NCBI RefSeq assembly: GCF_004103825.1
Contig: NZ_RYFI01000029.1
Span: forward strand, 1 to 33,426
DNA length: 33,426 bases
Origin: Hansschlegelia zhihuaiae
Lineage (GTDB): Bacteria > Pseudomonadota > Alphaproteobacteria > Rhizobiales > Methylopilaceae
Direction: 5' to 3'
Of the stretch, positions 23,535-33,374 are shown in pieces (positions within the stretch are counted from its first letter, which is position 1; each line of letters starts with the position of its first letter). Position numbers and translations under genes: made by a program. The notes below the pieces were generated by a model. The model ran no database searches. It saw only the letters and a list, made by a program, of their open reading frames with translations, and was not told where the DNA came from.

Positions 23535-24032
23535 ATGGCAGCACACGAAGACACAACGCGCGTCTACGACCTCGCCGAGAACATCGGCGTTTGCATGCTG
23601 GTCTCGAAGGCCGGCGCCGCGCTTCGCGCGCGCCCGATGCACGCCAAGGTCGATCGCGAAACCGATGTGATCACGTTTCTGACCGACGCCAGACACCACA
23701 AGGACGACGAGATCGCGGCCGACCCGGATGTTTGCCTCGCCTTCGCCAAGCCAGGCTCCCAGAACTACGTTTCGATCTCCGGCGTCGCCGAAGTCCTTAA
23801 CGACCGGGCAGCGATCAAAGACCGTTTCAACGAAATGGCGAAGGTCTGGTTTCCGGAGGGCGCCGACGATCCAAACGTGCGCCTGCTCGTCGTGCGCCCA
23901 CAATCCGCTGAGTACTGGGACGGCAAGACCAACCCGATCACGGTGGCGTTCGAGATCGTCAAGGCGCGCATGTCGAGCGAACGGCCCGATATGGGCGACA
24001 ACCGCAAAGTCGCGATGGGAGGGCGCTCATGA
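23535..24032 (+). CDS. Pyridoxamine 5'-phosphate oxidase-like protein (GSP26 type)
   Basis: A 165-residue FMN-binding split-barrel protein of the general stress protein 26 group. Typical pieces are GVCMLVSKAGAALRARPMHA, FLTDARHHKDDEIAADPDVCL and NYVSISGVAEVLNDRA, with a C-terminal FPEGADDPNVRLLVV and AEYWDG. It probably binds a flavin or deazaflavin and works as a small redox protein in stress. It is not the vitamin B6 enzyme PdxH, which is longer. The ATG at 23535 has AAGGAGA seven bases upstream, and an EcfG-type promoter precedes it at 23473-23497. Confidence 0.9.
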   Translation: MAAHEDTTRVYDLAENIGVCMLVSKAGAALRARPMHAKVDRETDVITFLTDARHHKDDEIAADPDVCLAFAKPGSQNYVSISGVAEVLNDRAAIKDRFNEMAKVWFPEGADDPNVRLLVVRPQSAEYWDGKTNPITVAFEIVKARMSSERPDMGDNRKVAMGGRS

Positions 24033-24282
24033 TCCGCGCTTCGGGGTGCAGGGGAATGCGCCTGCCGCCGCCCTTCTTCGCCGCCCGGGCCGGCAGCTCG
24101 AGCACATGCCCAACGCCTGACCATGGCCCAGGTCAACCGGGCGACCTCGCAGGCCCTCAGTCCCGCTTGGAGGGTCAGCAAAATGATGACGGCGTTGCGG
24201 TTCGGCGTGCGGCTTCGGCGGGCGAGCGCCAGGGCGCAGCGCACCTCCTTGCCGCCAAGGATCTTGGCGGGCTGTCCACGCA
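24003..24282 (-). pseudogene. Tyrosine recombinase/integrase remnant
   Basis: From 24282 on the minus strand the frame reads MRGQPAKILGGKEVRCALAL, NAVIILLTLQAGLRACEVAR and LTWAMV, which is the start of the catalytic domain of phage-type integrases; the R in GLRACEVARL is the first catalytic arginine. Past about 24125 the frame shifts and continues as ARAAKKGGGRRIPLHPEARI, which is again typical integrase sequence. The part with the HxxR and tyrosine motifs is absent. It lies 400 bases from tRNA-Ser, the usual arrangement of an old tRNA-integrated element. Confidence 0.75.
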
Positions 24283-24771
<489 letters not shown>

Positions 24772-25002
24772 GCGAAACTGGCGAGCCGTCGACGGGTCGC
24801 TCCATACACCGGGAGCCCGGCCGCGCACAAGCGGCGGGACGAGCGGGCAGGGCGGCGATCGAAAGGCTCACGCGGAGCGGCGGCGGTCTCGCGGTCGTGG
24901 CTTGACGGAGGGCGCGGCATTCCCGAGAGGACGCAGGGACACGCGACCCTCCGCGCGATCGATCCGTCGCCGCGCCTCGTCTCACCTTCCGAAGAGCCGT
25001 CA

Positions 25003-25818
25003 ATGTCCGTCCTCGCCCGTCTCGTCGCCCATCCCGTCACCGAGCGCGCCGTCCTCGCGCTCGTCGTCGTCAACGCCGTCACGCTCGGCCTCGAGACCAG
25101 CCCGAGCGTGATGGCGCGCTGGGGCGGCCCGCTGCACCTGCTGGACCAGTTCATCCTTGCGGTGTTCGTCGTGGAGATCGCGGCGCGGCTCGCCGTCAGG
25201 CGCCTCGCCTTCTTCCGCGACCCCTGGTCGGTGTTCGACTTCACGATCGTGGCGATCTCGCTGCTGCCGGCGACCGGGCCGCTGCAGGTCCTGCGCGCGC
25301 TCAGGGTGCTGCGCGTGTTCCGGCTGATCACGCTGGCGCCGTCGCTGAAGCGGGTCGTGGGCGCGCTCGTGGGCGCGCTGCCCGGCATGGGCTCGATCGT
25401 GCTGCTGCTGCTGCTCGTGCTCTATGTCTTCGCCGTGATGGCGACGCATCTCTACGGGGTCGATATGCCGGACAAGTTCGGCACGCTCGGCATCTCGCTC
25501 TACACGCTGTTCCAGCTGGTGACGCTCGACGGCTGGTCGGGCGAGATCGTCAAGCCCGCGATGGAGACCCACCCTTACGCCTGGGTGTTCTTCATCACCT
25601 TCATCCTCGTGTCGTCCTTCACGGTCTTCAATCTGTTCATCGGCGTGGTGGTGAACGCCATGCAGGCAGAGCACGACCTCGAGATGAGCGAGAAGACCGG
25701 CAGGCCGCCGGTCTCGCTGGACGACCTGATGCAGGAACTGAAGCGGCTGCGCGCGGAGGTTCAGGAGCTGAGGGGGGCGACCCCGGCCGCGGGCGGGACA
25801 GGTCCCGCCCGGCTTTGA
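25003..25818 (+). CDS. BacNaV-type voltage-gated ion channel
   Basis: A 271-residue six-helix channel subunit of the bacterial sodium-channel type. Helices S1-S3 occupy about residues 15-90; S4 carries regularly spaced arginines in LRALRVLRVFRLIT (about 97-110), the voltage sensor. S5 and S6 flank the pore loop with filter TLDGWSG at 174-180. Well-studied BacNaV proteins have TLESWAS or similar; here Asp replaces Glu and Gly replaces Ser, so selectivity may differ. A C-terminal coiled coil (LDDLMQELKRLRAEVQELRG) fits tetramer assembly. The ATG at 25003 follows GAAGAG at a normal distance. Confidence 0.9.
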   Translation: MSVLARLVAHPVTERAVLALVVVNAVTLGLETSPSVMARWGGPLHLLDQFILAVFVVEIAARLAVRRLAFFRDPWSVFDFTIVAISLLPATGPLQVLRALRVLRVFRLITLAPSLKRVVGALVGALPGMGSIVLLLLLVLYVFAVMATHLYGVDMPDKFGTLGISLYTLFQLVTLDGWSGEIVKPAMETHPYAWVFFITFILVSSFTVFNLFIGVVVNAMQAEHDLEMSEKTGRPPVSLDDLMQELKRLRAEVQELRGATPAAGGTGPARL

Positions 25819-25943: not shown

Positions 25944-26172
25944 GCTCCATCTGCTCGTGATGGTGTGGGAGTCGGCGGCCGAAGTGTCGCTGGTCAACAT
26001 CTCTTTGCTCGATACGAAGGGCTACGTCCCCCTTTGGGTCGATCTACGTTCGGCGGCGTATCTCATCCATGCGGAGGCGAACCGCGGCGCGTTAAATTTC
26101 CGTAGGGCTTGAAACTCCACCGTATATTGCTCACCTAACCGTATAAGCCCAAGAGAATCAACGACCTCAATG

Positions 26173-26193: not shown

Positions 26194-26247
26194 GGGCCGC
26201 GATCGGCCTTTTTGCCGGTGCGGAAGCGTCGCGATCTCAAAAGAAAA

Positions 26248-26273
26248 GCGGCCCCGGGGTTCGGGGCCGCTTT
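26248..26273. terminator. Bidirectional intrinsic terminator after tniQ
   Basis: Eight-base stem GCGGCCCC / GGGGCCGC with a seven-base loop, flanked by AAAA on one side and TTT on the other. On the minus strand the stem is followed by TTTTCTTTT, so it can end the tnsABC-tniQ transcript 30 bases after the tniQ stop. Confidence 0.8.
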
Positions 26274-26302: not shown

Positions 26303-28134
26303 CTATGGGATCTGATCCTTCAGATCCTCCCGACGGTAGAACCCGCCCGGCCTTTCAAAAGCCGCCGCCACTCCACGACTGTTTTGGCGTTTCCGAAACG
26401 TGCCCCAACTGACGTCTGCCAGTTTCGCCGCCTCGGCGAGTGGAATGTACGAGGACAAAAACTGCTCGATCGCCGACCGTGAAACGATCTTCATCGGACG
26501 GTTCGTTTTGGGATGCCGGCCGTCGACAGCCGGCAGGATCTTTTGTTCGATCAGCGCGTGCACCGAATTAACGGGCGCTCGCATCATCGCCGCCGCTTCC
26601 TTGACCGATAGAAGGTCTCGGTCTCTCGTCAGCACCAGCGCCTCAACCTCGCGCGGATCGACGAGTACGGAGTTGTAACCTTCGACGCCAATCCGCTTTC
26701 CGACCCGTTGAAGTTTGCCTTCCAGGATCAATCGGACGATCGCCTCAGCACCGCAGAACACTCTTTTCTGGGCCGCGCTGATATTCATCAGGGATGGATC
26801 ATCGCTGTAGCGCTCATCCGCGGCCCGCGTCAGCTGAAGCAAAAATGCGTCGAGGTCGCGCGGTAGAAAGGCGTGGTCCTTCAAGCCGCTCGAGCCAGCG
26901 GCGATCCACGGCTTCAGAAGGCCCGATGCGACCAAGATCGGTTCGTGCGCCTTCGGTGCATTCAGGTACTTCAGAGCCTGTAGGTAGTTCAGACTGGACT
27001 TCGCGTCCTTTAGAAACTGCTCTGATTTGACCGCGTCGAAGGTTTGCCAATTGAACGGCAGATTTGATCTTGCTGGCACCCATCCCATTTCGATCAGCAT
27101 AAGCCGCAGCCGATCGCGATCCATCTTATACTGGCGGCTAGCACTCCAGACCGAATGAACTTTCCGAGTCGACACTTCCTTTCCAAACAGTCTGTCGCCA
27201 GGCCCAACCGGCATGGTGTCCACGATGTGATCCGTGACGATCTTCCGGATCGGGTCGAAGTCCGCCTCGGCATTGGCGTTTGCGAGCCAATAGTAGATCT
27301 GGCCGTACATCGCCGTTGGTCCCTTGGCGTTACCGCCGGTCTTCGCGGTATTCATCGCGTCGAGCGCCGCGCGAACACCAGCCTCGCCCAGCGACACCGC
27401 TTCGAAGCCGATGTTGTCGCTCTCCCGGCGCTCGTCGTCCGAAAGGTCGGACAGCCGAGCGAGATGACCGCGCGTCATCGACGCCCCCAAGAGCGCTGCC
27501 GACTGCATCACGACATGCAGTGGCAGGCCGTCGATCCATGCGTCGCCCGGTGGCTGGTCCAGTCGTTCGAGCACGTAGCGCTCGAACGACGTCACCGGGC
27601 GTTCGACGGCCTGGGCCTCGAGCTGCGGCAGCATGCGTAAGGAGCGCGCAATGATAAGGCTCGTATCGAGCGACTCGCAGGCGGCGGCCATCCGCCCAGC
27701 GGCGCGAGTGCGAGGTGGTGACGCTCACAGGTCTTGATCTGCGAGATGATCCAGTGTGCGCGACGGTAAGGTCGGGCCTCGGCCTGAAAGGATTGCGCGT
27801 CGAGGTCCTCGCGAAAGCACGCAGGGCAGATCCGAACCTGATTTCGAGTGAGCTGGATGGTACGGCTGAACTTATGGGCGCGGTGAAAAATGGAGATTCC
27901 GCGCGGGCTGCCGGCGAAGGCTTCGCGTTCAAGCGCGGCCTGATCGGCTGCGCCGGCTTCCGCCAGCCTGGCCAGCGCAGCGCTTTCGCCGCAGATCACT
28001 GCCTGGACATCGAGGTGAAGGTCGTGAGCCAGCGTTCTCATGTCGCGGATGCAGTTACGGACGGCCAATCGTGACAAAAAGTCGGACGGCGCTTCCCGGT
28101 GACCGAGGGGTACGGTGAGAGGCAATCGCTTCAT
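26303..28134 (-). pseudogene. tniQ: tniQ/tnsD target-selection gene split by a frameshift
   Basis: The N-terminal part starts at the ATG 28134 and has the TniQ zinc-finger pattern: Cys103 and Cys106 in RICPACFRED, then His127, Cys136 and His139/140 in CERHH. Its frame ends at 27592 in nonsense after about residue 147. The remaining 460 residues lie in the -1 frame, which opens after a TGA near 27722 and has an ATG at 27691. They contain AASRQYKM-type helical repeats and two C-terminal helix-turn-helix-like segments (LLSVKEAAAMMRAPVNSVHALI and YIPLAEAAKLADVSWGTF). The join lies between about 27722 and 27690. Joined, the protein would be about 610 residues, a normal TniQ/TnsD size. I see no canonical slippery heptamer. 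So this is a one-base deletion, a reinitiation pair or a sequencing error. The start overlaps the tnsC stop by four bases. Confidence 0.8.
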
Positions 28135-29246
28135 GAACGCCTCCCCGCCGCCTTGGCCGCGGCCACCGTCCGCCGACGGAGCTGGGCGCGCGAAAGAGCG
28201 ACCTCGTCGACGACAGGGGCTTCCCAGAGCGCACCAGCGACATCGATCGTATCGTAGTCCTGGGCGATAAAGACGTTCATCTCCTCCCGTTCGTCGCCGG
28301 TCCGCGATGCGTAGGCGTCTGCGAAGTGATCGCCGTTCAGGACGCGATCGCCGGCTGCCAGGCAGGCTTCCAGCGCGTCCTGAACGAACTCCACCAGAAC
28401 CCCGAACCTGCCGTCGGCCGCATGGATGAGGCGAAGCATGAACTCATCCGTCAGCATCTGCTCGAACTCGACGGTCGGGCACGCTTTCATCAGGTCGCGC
28501 ACGACTTTTCGCATGGCCGGAACGTGGTCGCGGGTAACGCGGTTGAAGCGCACCTGCGAAGTCCGTCTCGAAATCGACCGATCGCCCTGGCAGAATCGGG
28601 CCACCTCGGGGAGGCCCGACAGGATGAGCCAGATCGTCCATTCGGGATCCTGAAGGAGGCCTTTCAGAGTGTTCTCGATCTGCGTCGCAGTCGACCAATT
28701 GACGTGATCGCCGTGCTGCGCCTCATCGATGTGCAGGATGCGGACCTGGTGCTCGCGGAACATGGCCTTGACCATCGGCCACACCTCGGACTGCTTGATC
28801 TCTCGCCTGGAGTGGTAGCCGAGCTTGCGAACGATCTCGTTGCCCAAAACGCCGAGGGTAAATGGCGAGGGCGCCACGACGGACAGTAGGGGGCAGCCCG
28901 ATCCGATCTCCCCGAAGCCGACAAGCTCGGGCCGGGTCTGGTACTGTCGGGACAGCGCACGAGTCTTGCCCACTCCCGCGTCGCCCGTCACGATCAAGAC
29001 CCGGCCTCCGCGCAGCGCCGAAGCCGAGTTTTTTCCTTCGGCCTGCCACTCGATTTCGCGCACGATCGAGTCGAACAGACGGTCGAATTCGACAGTCAGC
29101 AGCTTGTCGTTCTGCGTCGGCACGTAGACCTGCTGAACGGCGGCTACGCTGTCGCTTACTGACGTGCGGATGTCAGACCGGTTCGCCTTGATCCGGTCCA
29201 CGAGGTTGACCGGCGCCTGTACAGCGCCGGTCTTGATGTCGCTCAT
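28131..29246 (-). CDS. tnsC: TnsC/TniB-type AAA+ transposition ATPase
   Basis: A 371-residue AAA+ ATPase that links target selector and transposase. The Walker A motif GDAGVGKT is at residues 88-95, Walker B ILHIDEAQ at 170-177, and a sensor-type segment LILSGLPEVARF follows. The N-terminal 45 residues probably hold the TnsA/TnsB contact region. It lies five bases after tnsB and overlaps tniQ by four bases, so the four genes are one operon. Size and motif order fit TniB and TnsC of Tn7-like and Tn5053-like elements. Confidence 0.92.
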   Translation of the reverse strand: MSDIKTGAVQAPVNLVDRIKANRSDIRTSVSDSVAAVQQVYVPTQNDKLLTVEFDRLFDSIVREIEWQAEGKNSASALRGGRVLIVTGDAGVGKTRALSRQYQTRPELVGFGEIGSGCPLLSVVAPSPFTLGVLGNEIVRKLGYHSRREIKQSEVWPMVKAMFREHQVRILHIDEAQHGDHVNWSTATQIENTLKGLLQDPEWTIWLILSGLPEVARFCQGDRSISRRTSQVRFNRVTRDHVPAMRKVVRDLMKACPTVEFEQMLTDEFMLRLIHAADGRFGVLVEFVQDALEACLAAGDRVLNGDHFADAYASRTGDEREEMNVFIAQDYDTIDVAGALWEAPVVDEVALSRAQLRRRTVAAAKAAGRRS

Positions 29247-29251
29247 CGGTC

Positions 29252-31513
29252 TCAGTCCTCGCCGAGGAAGTCGGCGCCGCTACCGCGGCGGCGACCGGTG
29301 GGCGACGAGCGCTTCACGACGGTCTCGGCGCTGTCGGCGCTGTCGGCCGGGGCGACCGGGGCCTGATCGTCCGGCGCGGCGTCGTCGGGTTCGTCCTCAT
29401 CCAGGCCTTCCAGTGCGCGACCGCGCTCGGTCGCGACCTCGATGTCGAACGAGGCGAACAGGTTGGTCTCGTGGTCCCTCACCATCTCCGACGAGAGCAG
29501 AGTCGGTCCGATGCCGGCGAGTTCGGCGGACGCCAGCCCGTCCTTGCGGATCGCCGCGAGAGCTCTGAGCAAAATCGGCCGGCGGATCTTGGCGTTGTTG
29601 GCGTATCGGCGACGCAGCGCCTCCGCGGTTGCGATCCACTCCTGGGCGCTGACGCCATCGAAGTCCTTCATTTCGATCGGTACGGTGATCCAGCGTTTGT
29701 TCAGGCCCTGGACCGAAATGCTCCCGAGGTTGGAAAGGTCGACACGGATGTTGAGCGGCTGCTGACCGACGCTCTGACGCAGGACAGCGAGCTCGCGCGA
29801 CCGGTAGTGCAGTCCTAGGTGGCGAATGCCTCGATTCGAGATTACGCGGACGTCGCGATGGCCGAACACGGCGCGCATCTGATCGTCGGAGGGGGGAGGC
29901 AGCACGCCATAACGATCGCTGAGGCGGATCCAGGCGTCGTTCGGCGTTTCATGGCCCAGTGAGGAATGCTCCTGGTTGTGATAGACGTCGACGATGTATC
30001 GGACCAGACAACGGGTGAGCACTTCGACCGTTACGTTGGTCGCGGCTTCCCAGTCGTAGTCGCCCTTGCTGGCGACGCTTTTGAACGTGCGGCCAGTGAA
30101 GTGCTGCATGAGCTGGCCGTCGATCGTGCCGAAGGCGCGCTCGACGACCGCCCTGACATCGGGTTTACCGGCCGGGCCGACTTCAGAAGTCGCGCCGTAA
30201 TCGCGCACAACGGCGCGAAACTCCTTGCGGAACTCGGCGCCGCCGTCCGTCGGGACGGAGAGTGCGGTCAGGCAGTGATGCCAGGTCGACGCGCATTCGG
30301 CGGCCTGCGCGATCTTAGTCTTGTCGCGGGCCGTCATTTCCAGGGTCTTGATCGAAACATCGGCCGTCGGATTGAGCGCGAGGCGCACGCCCAAGATCAC
30401 CCGCGAGGCTTCATCGATCGCCAGGCACAGGCTGAGCCGAGTCTTCGCGATCTTCTTCCGCCATTCGTCGGGCATGCCGGCCCAAAAGTGCTTCGGCAGC
30501 TTCAGGGCGCCGACATTGGTCCGCCAGTTGTCCATCAGCACCCGGTCACCGGGCGCCAGACCTGTGTCGTGACGGGCCGCGATCTTGAACTGGCGGTGAG
30601 CGGCTGCAGCCCCTTCACGCGCAAGGACAACGTCGTAGGGCCGGAGCTTGTTGATGCGACGGCGAAAGGTCGAGATCGAGGGCACATCGAGTTCGTCCTT
30701 GCCGTTCTGAAGGCGATCGGCGTTCAGCACCTCGAATTCGTGCAGCATCTGTTTGTAGAGCGCCGGCACCGTCGGCTCATTGCGGTCGAGATAAGCCTGG
30801 ACCCAGCGGCTCATGACCTCCACGACCGTCGCGTCGACGATTGCGGGGAGACGCAAAGTAGCCGCCGTCTTGCGCCCGTCGCGGATCGCGAGGAGGTCGT
30901 TTTGGAACTTGTTGAGGCGCTTCCGATAGGTGCGGTAGGTCGAAGGGCAGATAAGCTTGGGCAGGCTTCTGCCTTCGCGTGAACCCTGGCCTTTCGCGAG
31001 CTTGTTCGCGTTGCCACCCGTCTCGGGCGTCGCGATCGGCTTCGCCTGCTGGGCGACCAATTCCCAGTAGACCCGCGAGATGAGGGGGCGGAGCGCATCG
31101 TCGGTGAGGCTGCTTTCAGTCTGTGCGCGCAGCTTTTCGACGCCATCGACGAGGCGCTTGTAGAAGTCGAGGTATTCCAGCTCTTCGGGCGGGATGTCCT
31201 GGGCGCAATCGATGTCCGCGTTCTGCGCGATCAGCTGCTTGCGAGCGCAGTCGAAGAAGTGCGGCTCGATCTCGATCTTCTTGCTCTGCAGCAGGCTGCC
31301 GATGTCGGCGTGCGAGAAGATCTCAGTCGGCGCGTCCGAGAGCGGGGTCGGCGTGTCGCCGGCCGTGACCTGCGTGAGGATGATGATGTTTGCGTCGCGC
31401 GCCTTCTGAACGTAGTGACGCGGTTCGGGGTCGCTGATCGTGATGCGCGACAGCGGGCTGAAGTTGTACTTCGCGGTGGTGGGGGCGATGGTCTGGCTCA
31501 GGGTCAGGTTCAT
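29252..31513 (-). CDS. tnsB: TnsB-type DDE transposase
   Basis: A 753-residue transposase of the Mu/Tn7 retroviral-integrase superfamily, which cuts and joins the 3' ends of the element. The catalytic triad is Asp328 in RVLMDNWRTN, Asp423 in PTDGGAEF and Glu458 in VVERAFGTIDG. The spacing between the last two is exactly 35 residues, the D(35)E arrangement. The N-terminal 300 residues hold helix-turn-helix DNA-binding segments, and the C-terminal part (LGLHYRSREL and following) is the Mu-type beta-barrel. An acidic and basic tail at the end is the likely TnsC contact. The ATG at 31513 lies 13 bases after tnsA; an in-frame ATG 14 codons earlier is less likely because it overlaps the tnsA end. 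Confidence 0.93.
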   Translation of the reverse strand: MNLTLSQTIAPTTAKYNFSPLSRITISDPEPRHYVQKARDANIIILTQVTAGDTPTPLSDAPTEIFSHADIGSLLQSKKIEIEPHFFDCARKQLIAQNADIDCAQDIPPEELEYLDFYKRLVDGVEKLRAQTESSLTDDALRPLISRVYWELVAQQAKPIATPETGGNANKLAKGQGSREGRSLPKLICPSTYRTYRKRLNKFQNDLLAIRDGRKTAATLRLPAIVDATVVEVMSRWVQAYLDRNEPTVPALYKQMLHEFEVLNADRLQNGKDELDVPSISTFRRRINKLRPYDVVLAREGAAAAHRQFKIAARHDTGLAPGDRVLMDNWRTNVGALKLPKHFWAGMPDEWRKKIAKTRLSLCLAIDEASRVILGVRLALNPTADVSIKTLEMTARDKTKIAQAAECASTWHHCLTALSVPTDGGAEFRKEFRAVVRDYGATSEVGPAGKPDVRAVVERAFGTIDGQLMQHFTGRTFKSVASKGDYDWEAATNVTVEVLTRCLVRYIVDVYHNQEHSSLGHETPNDAWIRLSDRYGVLPPPSDDQMRAVFGHRDVRVISNRGIRHLGLHYRSRELAVLRQSVGQQPLNIRVDLSNLGSISVQGLNKRWITVPIEMKDFDGVSAQEWIATAEALRRRYANNAKIRRPILLRALAAIRKDGLASAELAGIGPTLLSSEMVRDHETNLFASFDIEVATERGRALEGLDEDEPDDAAPDDQAPVAPADSADSAETVVKRSSPTGRRRGSGADFLGED

Positions 31514-31526
31514 GACTGTGGATCTT

Positions 31527-32186
31527 TCAATGTGATGCAGGAACGCGACGCACATGTGCGTCGTAGCTGATGGGTTTATTTGCGCTGGTCTTGAGATGCC
31601 GGGCCCGGATCAGCCGCAGGACGGCGTTGTAACCCGCGGCCTTCAGCCCGCTCGCGTTGACGAGGTCATCGATCAGGAGCCATCCGCTGGTCTGCTGAAC
31701 CAGCTTCGAGACCTTGGCGTCTGCGTCCGGGTCTGGCACCCAGCAGGCGCGCAGGACCGCCTTGGCGTCCGCGACGTCGTCGGGGTGCATGTGCTGCTCG
31801 GTCCGGATGAGGTACCGGTCAGCAAGGCTGGTCCCGTACTGCTCGCGGATCAGCTGCTGCACGAAGACGATGTTGCTGCGCTCGACGAGCGCGGCCGGCT
31901 TGACGTCGACGAGCGCACGCCTTCCGGCATGGGTGACGGCGAGGAAGTCGAAGGTGTGGTGATGCAGGACGCCGTCGTCGTCGAAATATTCGACCGCCGC
32001 CGGCTGCTCCTGGATCATGACGATGGCGGTGGATGCGAGCCACAGCCAGAGCGCATTGCGCTCCAGGCCGCTTTCGAAGGTCAGCTCTATGTTGCGTTCG
32101 TGATCGACGATGTGTCCGCGGTAATTGTACGGCGAACTACTGGAGATCGACCGCGTCGCCAGGGTGGGATGCGGGAGTACGAGCAA
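31527..32186 (-). CDS. tnsA: TnsA-type endonuclease
   Basis: A 219-residue restriction-enzyme-like nuclease that cuts the 5' ends of the element, giving cut-and-paste transposition. The catalytic residues are Glu38/Glu42 in FESGLERNALW, Asp80 in HHHTFDFLAV and Lys96 in ALVDVKPA, matching the E-D-xVK core of TnsA. The C-terminal part (VQQTSGWLLIDDLVNASGL) looks like the winged-helix domain that binds TnsC. The start is a TTG at 32186 with GAGGAGA about seven bases upstream, so the unusual start codon is well supported. The presence of TnsA separates this element from Tn5053-type elements, which lack it. Confidence 0.9.
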   Translation of the reverse strand: MLVLPHPTLATRSISSSSPYNYRGHIVDHERNIELTFESGLERNALWLWLASTAIVMIQEQPAAVEYFDDDGVLHHHTFDFLAVTHAGRRALVDVKPAALVERSNIVFVQQLIREQYGTSLADRYLIRTEQHMHPDDVADAKAVLRACWVPDPDADAKVSKLVQQTSGWLLIDDLVNASGLKAAGYNAVLRLIRARHLKTSANKPISYDAHVRRVPASH

Positions 32187-32626: not shown

Positions 32627-32908
32627 TCAGCGCTGCGGGTCCTGAAGCTGGTAAAACCGGCTTAGCGTTCGCACCCATCCTTCGCCCTGCGCGAAGACCA
32701 TGGAGGTGGTGACGGGACCTGATCCCAGCCTGGGATGGCCGTTCGCGACGCCGGTGAGGACTGTGATCAGCGACGGAGCTTTTCGCCATTCCGAAAGGAT
32801 CGGAGCGGACAGCATCTGGTCGATGGTGGGGCGCTCTCCATTCGATCCGATCAGGCGCAGGTCGAACGCGAGCCGCTCAAGGCGGTCGGCTTCCCGGTTC
32901 CAGTTCAT
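32627..32908 (-). CDS. DUF6634-like protein
   Basis: A 93-residue soluble protein, starting MNWNREADRLERLAFDLRLI and containing TIDQMLSAPILSEWRKAP. As far as I recall it resembles DUF6634, a small uncharacterised family found beside FtsH-like M41 genes in Hyphomicrobiales. The ATG overlaps the stop of the M41 fragment by four bases (ATGA), so the two were one transcript. Function unknown. Whether it is expressed now depends on the insertion upstream. Confidence 0.6.
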   Translation of the reverse strand: MNWNREADRLERLAFDLRLIGSNGERPTIDQMLSAPILSEWRKAPSLITVLTGVANGHPRLGSGPVTTSMVFAQGEGWVRTLSRFYQLQDPQR

Positions 32909-33374
32909 GACTGGGCCTCCGGGTGCGAAGCGACAAACGCGACCATCTCTTCAGCGCGCATGAACCGGCGTAACGCCAGTTCGCTCGCCAGCGCTCGCAG
33001 GGCCATCACGTTGCGACTGAGAAGGCTAAGTGTGACGTCGTAAGCGTCCTGCAGGTCCTGCTCGACCTCCGCCTTCAGCTTCGCGTCAGTCTCGAGCAAA
33101 GCGAGCGCTTCCTGAACGGTGCCGCGAAACGACAACGTGTCGCCAAGGCCGAATGACATGCGCCGTGCGGCCGAGAGAACGGTTGCCTGCCCAAGATCCG
33201 ACGGTATTCCGCCGCCGGCTCCGCTGTTGGCCATCCCTGTCAGCAGCTCGTCAGCGGCACGTCCCGCCATCAGAATCGTCAGCGCCTGCTCGATGACGCT
33301 TACCGTGAGGACACGAGGCAGAGGTTTGAGGTGGGTCACGCCCCGATCCACATCGACGGCGATGAGGCGGTCGC
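32905..33374 (-). pseudogene. FtsH-like M41 peptidase gene, C-terminal fragment
   Basis: The frame reads GVTHLKPLPRVLTVSVIEQA, then AGRAADELLTG and GGIPSDLGQATVLSAA, which are the C-terminal signatures of M41 peptidases. The Asp in SDLGQAT is the third zinc ligand of FtsH. The AAA+ domain and the HEXXH zinc motif should lie upstream but the sequence runs into a repeat array at about 33375. The remaining part cannot be an active protease. The frame is open to that point without a clear start; a GTG at 33351 is the only late start. The loss is best explained by an insertion sequence. Confidence 0.75.

Follow-up and report, generated by a model that had tools for sequence, protein, structure and literature searches.

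Tn7, whose TniQ-family protein is TnsD, inserts behind glmS, and in phage Mu the complex left after strand transfer is taken apart by the host unfoldase ClpX. Tn7-like transposons at large are defined by TnsB and TnsC together with TnsA and/or TniQ (PMC11406308). The locus considered here, a tnsA-tnsB-tnsC-tniQ operon, comes within this definition and lies in the 33,426-nucleotide contig NZ_RYFI01000029.1 of Hansschlegelia zhihuaiae (the whole stretch is called the window below). We read the window as carrying the portion on the tniQ side of a site-specific Tn7-like transposon, now decayed, in a Methylopila-type alphaproteobacterium, the element being one of a widespread set in Hyphomicrobiales in which a gene for a predicted soluble FtsH-like AAA+ zinc protease is found just upstream of tnsA, in part with a divergent xre, the gene up196 and small genes, and in which the protease most likely acts on the transposition machinery itself; we hold this explanation, taken as a whole, with moderate confidence.

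The type I-F3 CRISPR (clustered regularly interspaced short palindromic repeats)-associated transposons (CASTs), such as Tn6677 and PseCAST, have, like this locus, separate TnsA, TnsB, TnsC and TniQ proteins, provide the best solved-structure matches of the profiles, and are described with Xre regulators (PMC11406308); they differ from it in that the window is devoid of a CRISPR array, that an FtsH-like cassette is found here and that the large TniQ presumably reads DNA itself. Tn7 shares tnsABC and a TniQ-family protein, and relatives of the window element also form 5-bp duplications beside a conserved gene; unlike in Tn7, it is the end next to tniQ that points towards the target gene in the relatives at gyrB, and a protease cassette lies upstream of tnsA. 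Tn6022-like elements, which target comM, likewise carry tnsA, tnsB, tnsC and tniQ without CRISPR, the difference being the gyrB target of the relatives. The resemblance to phage Mu and host ClpX would consist in an AAA+ unfoldase working on a DDE transposition complex, whereas here the AAA+ protein is encoded by the element and has its own zinc protease domain.

The tns operon

An earlier note, made from the letters of the window alone, had described four tightly spaced genes in Tn7 order. The description stands for tnsA, tnsB and tnsC, which are open, closely packed minus-strand frames (table 1), and fails for tniQ, which is split into two frames; furthermore, the span that was assigned to the operon, 26303-32186, is too short, a DUF6634 gene (32908-32627) and an FtsH-like fragment upstream of tnsA having been missed. 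The catalytic residues proposed for TnsB, D328, D423 and E458 (numbered from the ATG at 31513), proved invariant across 15 aligned TnsBs, and those of TnsA and of the TnsC Walker boxes are found in the motifs FESGLERN, QEQP, TFDF and DVK, and GDAGVGKT and HIDEAQ, respectively. In Pfam, TnsB matches Mu-transpos_C over the cut-off and rve under it, and TnsC matches TniB and AAA_22. The best solved-structure matches of the TnsA, TnsB and TnsC family profiles, in which the window proteins are included, are those of type I-F3 CASTs, with type V-K and Tn7 behind. Thus, the sequence supports a genuine tns operon of the Tn7-like class, as had been claimed.

No direct repeats of at least 22 nt spaced within 120 bp occur in the window, which therefore holds no CRISPR array; no Cas match was obtained among the scanned window proteins, only part of the element being inside the window. 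The absence of CRISPR and Cas asserted earlier hence holds for the repeats of the window and, as to cas genes, for the proteins scanned. A single-sequence search of genome contigs returned no close relatives of the window TnsB; the nearest one, at 34% identity, is that of locus L192, where the 8.5 kb examined upstream contain no FtsH-like gene (loci and genomes are cited by L and G numbers).

The two tniQ frames join at about 27673-27697, where a single 611-position profile is matched at 4-142 and then at 150-608. TniQ is a single frame of 595-666 residues in L062, L043, L044, L064 and L065, and it is found in two consecutive pieces in L196 and L203 as well as broken in a relic of genome G007. 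Either the window copy is damaged or a base-call error occurred at one point, a two-part working gene being less likely; as read, the frameshifted tniQ does not provide the window with an intact target selector. Two tniQ genes each are present in L106 and L040, the second one of L106 on the opposite strand.

The protease cassette upstream of tnsA

In the relatives, the cassette is ordered as xre (divergent), up196, FtsH-like gene, DUF6634 or other small genes, tnsA, tnsB, tnsC and tniQ. The window retains the DUF6634 gene, overlapping the end of the FtsH-like gene, and of the latter only the M41 end, which scores just under the Pfam cut-off, so that the combination of AAA and M41 zinc protease domains that marks the FtsH family is seen in the relatives. 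Among the 8 plasmid rows listed for the stretch at the contig end, one is under istB and three are under IS630 transposase; the stretch is probably the end of an IS21 family element that cuts the FtsH-like gene.

In 31 aligned FtsH-like proteins, HExxH and the Walker B DE are present throughout, and the Walker A GK(S/T) is kept by all 30 whose sequence extends over it, with the first Walker A glycine replaced by serine in L199, L200, L205 and L208. No clear membrane helix was found in 14 of these proteins (top 19-residue hydropathy 1.29-1.71), and the four that were scanned scored 140-170 bits, where the true-FtsH equivalog requires 600. By these features they appear to lack both the membrane anchor and the equivalog-level similarity of true FtsH.

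How often such a gene accompanies tnsA was evaluated with a TnsB profile, partly built from cassette loci, which listed 70 places in 397 genomes of the order (Hyphomicrobiales). Thirty-one places were inspected (11 known earlier and 20 fetched by TnsB rank, mainly the strongest), three of which had too short upstream DNA, leaving 28 evaluable loci; L101 and L203 were assigned by hand because the TnsA profile also matches up196. An FtsH-like gene lies on the tnsA strand, up to 3.2 kb upstream, in 16 of the 28 (as a fragment in the window and in L190). Among the 17 evaluable loci fetched by TnsB rank alone, it is adjacent on the same strand in seven, on the other strand in three, distant in one and absent in six. 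The window's genome (4.6 Mb) has four other FtsH-like genes with E values under 1e-20, from which the chance of finding one at such a place is estimated at about 0.2%.

In the FtsH tree, the window fragment, which covers 24% of the columns, groups with L035/L066 (100/98) and L062 (100/99), and the nine copies without tns in the examined stretch form one clade (99/99; 100/99 in a second tree). This tree leaves out L067 (no FtsH profile match), L190 (a fragment), the short second matches of L106 and L202, the weak matches of L045 and L064 and the remaining FtsH-like genes of the window's genome, G000. L066 has the FtsH type of L062 and a TnsB of a different clade, and this discord between the trees implies exchange between the cassette and the tns genes. 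The window's genome also carries another FtsH-like/DUF6634 pair (G000:C7:63110-64782), which belongs to the clade without tns. A gene starting with MCNLYSLTK, which we take to be of the SRAP/YedK type, recurs near FtsH-like or DUF6634 genes without tns in the examined stretch (L067:5203-5868, L069:3504-4319, L072:3798-4535).

The gene up196, first met in G007, has matches in 15 of the 397 genomes. The genus genomes contribute nine of these matches: six about 4 kb upstream of tnsB, two that are genes in the tnsA position and one by the tniQ relic of G007, with no tnsB. In a single pairwise hhalign comparison, up196 was matched to TnsA with a probability of 94.5% (E 7.5e-8), the controls TnsC and TnsB giving 0.2% and 0.1%; in the alignments, the catalytic E, D and K of TnsA are missing. 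Its profile found in the PDB solely the PseTnsAB fusion, at a non-significant E of 0.6, and its AlphaFold model (mean predicted local distance difference test score 37.8) was too poor for use. By profile similarity, up196 may thus be regarded as a TnsA-like protein without the catalytic residues. A further small protein, DDE-domain-like by eye, is encoded between the FtsH-like gene and tnsA in L098:11774-12199, L100:7898-8344 and L099:11070-11573; no Pfam match was obtained for the L098 and L100 copies. In L043, a plasmid of M. radiotolerans, annotated genes of a cyclic oligonucleotide-based antiphage signalling system (CBASS) lie several kb upstream of tnsA-tnsB-tnsC-tniQ, with no FtsH-like match in the stretch examined.

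Table 1. Positions of features in the window (first 11 rows) and of three related elements in their own genomes (last three rows).
Feature	Position	Strand	Evidence or remark
tnsA, endonuclease subunit	31527..32186	-	219 residues from TTG; catalytic motifs; solved TnsA matched by the family profile; Pfam TnsA-like_N (PF08722) at 1.5e-4, under that model's cut-off
tnsB, DDE transposase	29252..31513	-	753 residues from ATG 31513; frame open from 31555
tnsC, AAA+ regulator	28131..29246	-	TniB 2.3e-13; solved TnsC matched by the family profile
tniQ, N-terminal part, TniQ domain	27592..28134	-	PF06527 3.3e-14
tniQ, C-terminal part, different frame	26303..27691	-	62% identity over 282 residues to G007 tniQ relic
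Hairpin 3' of tniQ, likely terminator	26245..26273	-	12-nt perfect inverted repeat
Candidate TnsB-site pair, tniQ-side end	26120..26145	.	CCGTATA twice, 19 nt apart
Ion-channel gene flanking the element, possible target	24670..25818	+	PF00520 2.7e-43
DUF6634 gene, upstream cassette	32627..32908	-	PF20339 3.4e-7; 49-57% identical to L062 and L066 copies
FtsH-like AAA+ protease gene, C-terminal M41 end only	32905..33363	-	5' part missing; groups with cassette copies
Insertion-sequence end at contig end	33362..33426	.	last 58-64 bases resemble stretches in 206 plasmid records
G003 element	329683-387707		58.0 kb; 5-bp duplication GTGAT/ATCAC, exact
G004 element	116075-203003		86.9 kb; 5-bp duplication GTCGG/CCGAC, exact
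G007 element	2572025-2694484		122.5 kb; 5-bp duplication CTGAG/CTCAG, exact

Ends and target of the relatives at gyrB

Both ends could be placed for three related elements, in Methylopila jiangsuensis (G003), M. turkensis (G004) and Chenggangzhangella methanolivorans (G007), and by coordinates the protease cassette lies between the two ends in each of them. The tniQ-side end is found 1-6 bp past the gyrB stop codon and carries TGTC together with a pair of TnsB-like sites at a distance of 20 bp. With up to two mismatches, this end pattern occurs at 13 places in five of the 13 genus genomes (five of the places exact), the reversed pattern giving three; in the 3' flank of gyrB, the end motif is present in three of the 13 genomes and in none of the other 10. 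The far ends are at 387707 in G003 (one mismatch), 203003 in G004 (two mismatches, TGTA) and 2572025 in G007 (exact). These right ends were located through the end motif and not by flank comparison: against element-free genomes, the first 9.7-18.8 kb past gyrB remained unmatched, except for a stretch of 67-68% in two. The DNA of G004 and of G003 aligns with that of G007 throughout the cassette, the alignments ending at xre or no more than about 80 bp away from it. The sequences themselves show which genes are present, where the ends and duplications lie, that the cassette is inside the element and that the association recurs.

A 5-bp target duplication had been suggested as a check for the window; it is exact in the three relatives and was not found in the window, the other end of the window's element lying beyond the contig. 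Similarly, the proposal that targeting is guided by TniQ without CRISPR agrees with the position 3' of gyrB in the relatives, where TniQ would be the component choosing gyrB, and does not extend to the window copy with its frameshifted tniQ. A Bosea metagenome-assembled genome does not fit the simple rule: its TnsB is 52% identical, an FtsH-like/DUF6634 pair lies upstream on the opposite strand, and no gyrB is found in the examined stretch. For the element of G002, the search for an empty site by flank comparison matched the TPMT side alone. In G007, two Tn7-like elements stand in tandem at gyrB with ends about 9 bp apart (L142 / G007:C1:2572015-2572025), the far end of the second not having been found, and the same genome has another, badly broken copy of the gyrB-type TnsB (L216, C. 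methanolivorans 2459091-2481070).

The chromosomal locus of the window

On the tniQ side, the window element is flanked by an ion-channel gene, the 3' side of which is its candidate target. DNA comparison finds the genes for tRNA-Ser and the ion channel in five genus genomes, the similarity ending at window positions 25760-25779 in all five. No tns match was found at this locus in G004, G008, G010 and G012, which supports the earlier view that the element is mobile. G007, the fifth, has a broken tniQ some 5 kb away from this channel gene, in the same direction and related to that of the window (table 1); ahead of it stand a fragment of an integrase core and an FtsH-like gene lacking its end. 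The window copy and this relic would be what remains of the same kind of element at a shared locus. CCGTATA-N10..16-CCGTATA is matched once in the window's genome, by the window's own candidate site pair, so that the search for the opposite end by this pair gave nothing beyond the window's own place; inverted repeats between the two window flanks were not convincing. The tRNA-Ser gene is ruled out as target, as the channel gene intervenes and tniQ is more than 1 kb away. Near it, at 23765-24343 of the window, is a fragment resembling a tyrosine integrase by eye, and a longer similar frame is found in G012 (L038:545-1120).

Possible roles of the protease

In working elements, TnsA and TnsB would carry out excision and TnsC would act as the coupling component, TniQ would select the 3' end of a conserved gene (gyrB in three relatives) with a 5-bp duplication as the result, and the cargo would be situated past the cassette. 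The protease would then most likely unfold or degrade TnsB or TnsC, for example dismantling the DNA-bound complex after strand transfer; we infer this substrate and role, and also that the window copy once worked in the same way. Deletion of clpX in Escherichia coli lowers the propagation of PseCAST selection phage about 200-fold, ClpX increases PseCAST integration in human cells, where added ClpX is toxic, and it has been hypothesized to disassemble the post-transposition complex of this type I-F CAST (PMC12326709). These reports, along with the loci at which no xre was detected, favour remodelling of the complex over cleavage of an XRE repressor and over cargo.

The repressor is the centre of a rather doubtful alternative, namely a switch in which the divergent XRE protein would repress an up196-FtsH-tns operon and the FtsH-like protease would destroy XRE, turning transposition on, much as ImmA acts on ImmR in ICEBs1. 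Indeed, xre stands divergently beside up196 in L062, L035, L066 and L098-L102, and Xre-family regulators govern I-F3 CASTs (PMC11406308); however, among 14 testable loci with an adjacent FtsH-like gene, xre (E up to 0.01) is present in six and undetected in eight, so that XRE would be no general substrate if those loci are truly without it. We also judge it unlikely that the cassette is ordinary cargo, serving for instance in anti-phage defence, which by chance came to lie upstream of tnsA. Defence genes are common in Tn7-like elements (PMC8649781), the FtsH-like AAA domain matches IetA models, FtsH-like/DUF6634 pairs occur without tns in the examined stretch (L068-L073) and the cassette tree is discordant with the TnsB tree, but the IetA matches are confined to the AAA part, the copies without tns are a clade of their own, and the place and strand beside tnsA recur in both TnsB clades. 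That the FtsH-like/DUF6634 genes are themselves a target site, with a transposon inserted behind them as Tn7 is behind glmS, is very improbable: the arrangement and orientation of the genes in the window and in L062 do resemble this geometry, yet where both ends are known, in three elements, the cassette is between the ends and gyrB outside them. For the gyrB group, such a target is rejected on the basis of both ends and the duplications.

Several observations weigh against a protease that serves transposition in this class. Of the 28 evaluable loci, five have the FtsH-like gene on the opposite strand (no more than 6 kb away), one has it at a distance of 6.8 kb, and in six it was not found upstream; the class can therefore do without it. 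TnsBs split into two clades, and the label of an adjacent FtsH-like gene needs 10 changes on their tree, as compared with a mean of 12.7 on shuffling and values as low in 42 of 500 shuffles; the discord between trees that points to exchange would be expected of a shuffled cargo module as well. In L104, L105 and L107, an FtsH-like gene is accompanied by a weak up196 match, with no tns match in the 18-19 kb examined; cassette-like groups are thus also found away from tns, and the clade of copies without tns is not wholly free of the cassette. As for the window, the up196 and the N-terminal FtsH part that would belong to its fragment were not found in its genome, where the other FtsH-like genes were, and neither the ends nor the target nor the right part of the element could be made out. 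Finally, VchCAST is reported as independent of ClpX in bacteria, and ClpX did not come up in a screen (PMC12757027).

Implications

In these searches of an open-licence library, no report was found of an FtsH-like gene paired with Tn7-like tns genes, nor any mention of DUF6634, and Tn7-like elements combined with metalloproteases gave, as judged by title, unrelated matches only. The word 'gyrase' is absent from the main texts of PMC10293859 and PMC8649781, and 'gyr' from that of PMC11406308. Some I-F3 elements are reported at a parE site (PMC11406308), to which the site 3' of gyrB adds an akin conserved target.

More broadly, and tentatively, it may be that many Tn7-like transposons encode their own AAA+ unfoldase-protease, partly with a dead TnsA-like partner, which would regulate or dismantle the transposition complex and free these elements from host ClpX. 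The clearing of Tn7-like complexes from DNA once insertion is complete is of practical concern, and a transposon-borne AAA+ protease beside transposition genes with their best profile matches in type I-F3 CASTs would be a natural, matched candidate factor for CASTs.

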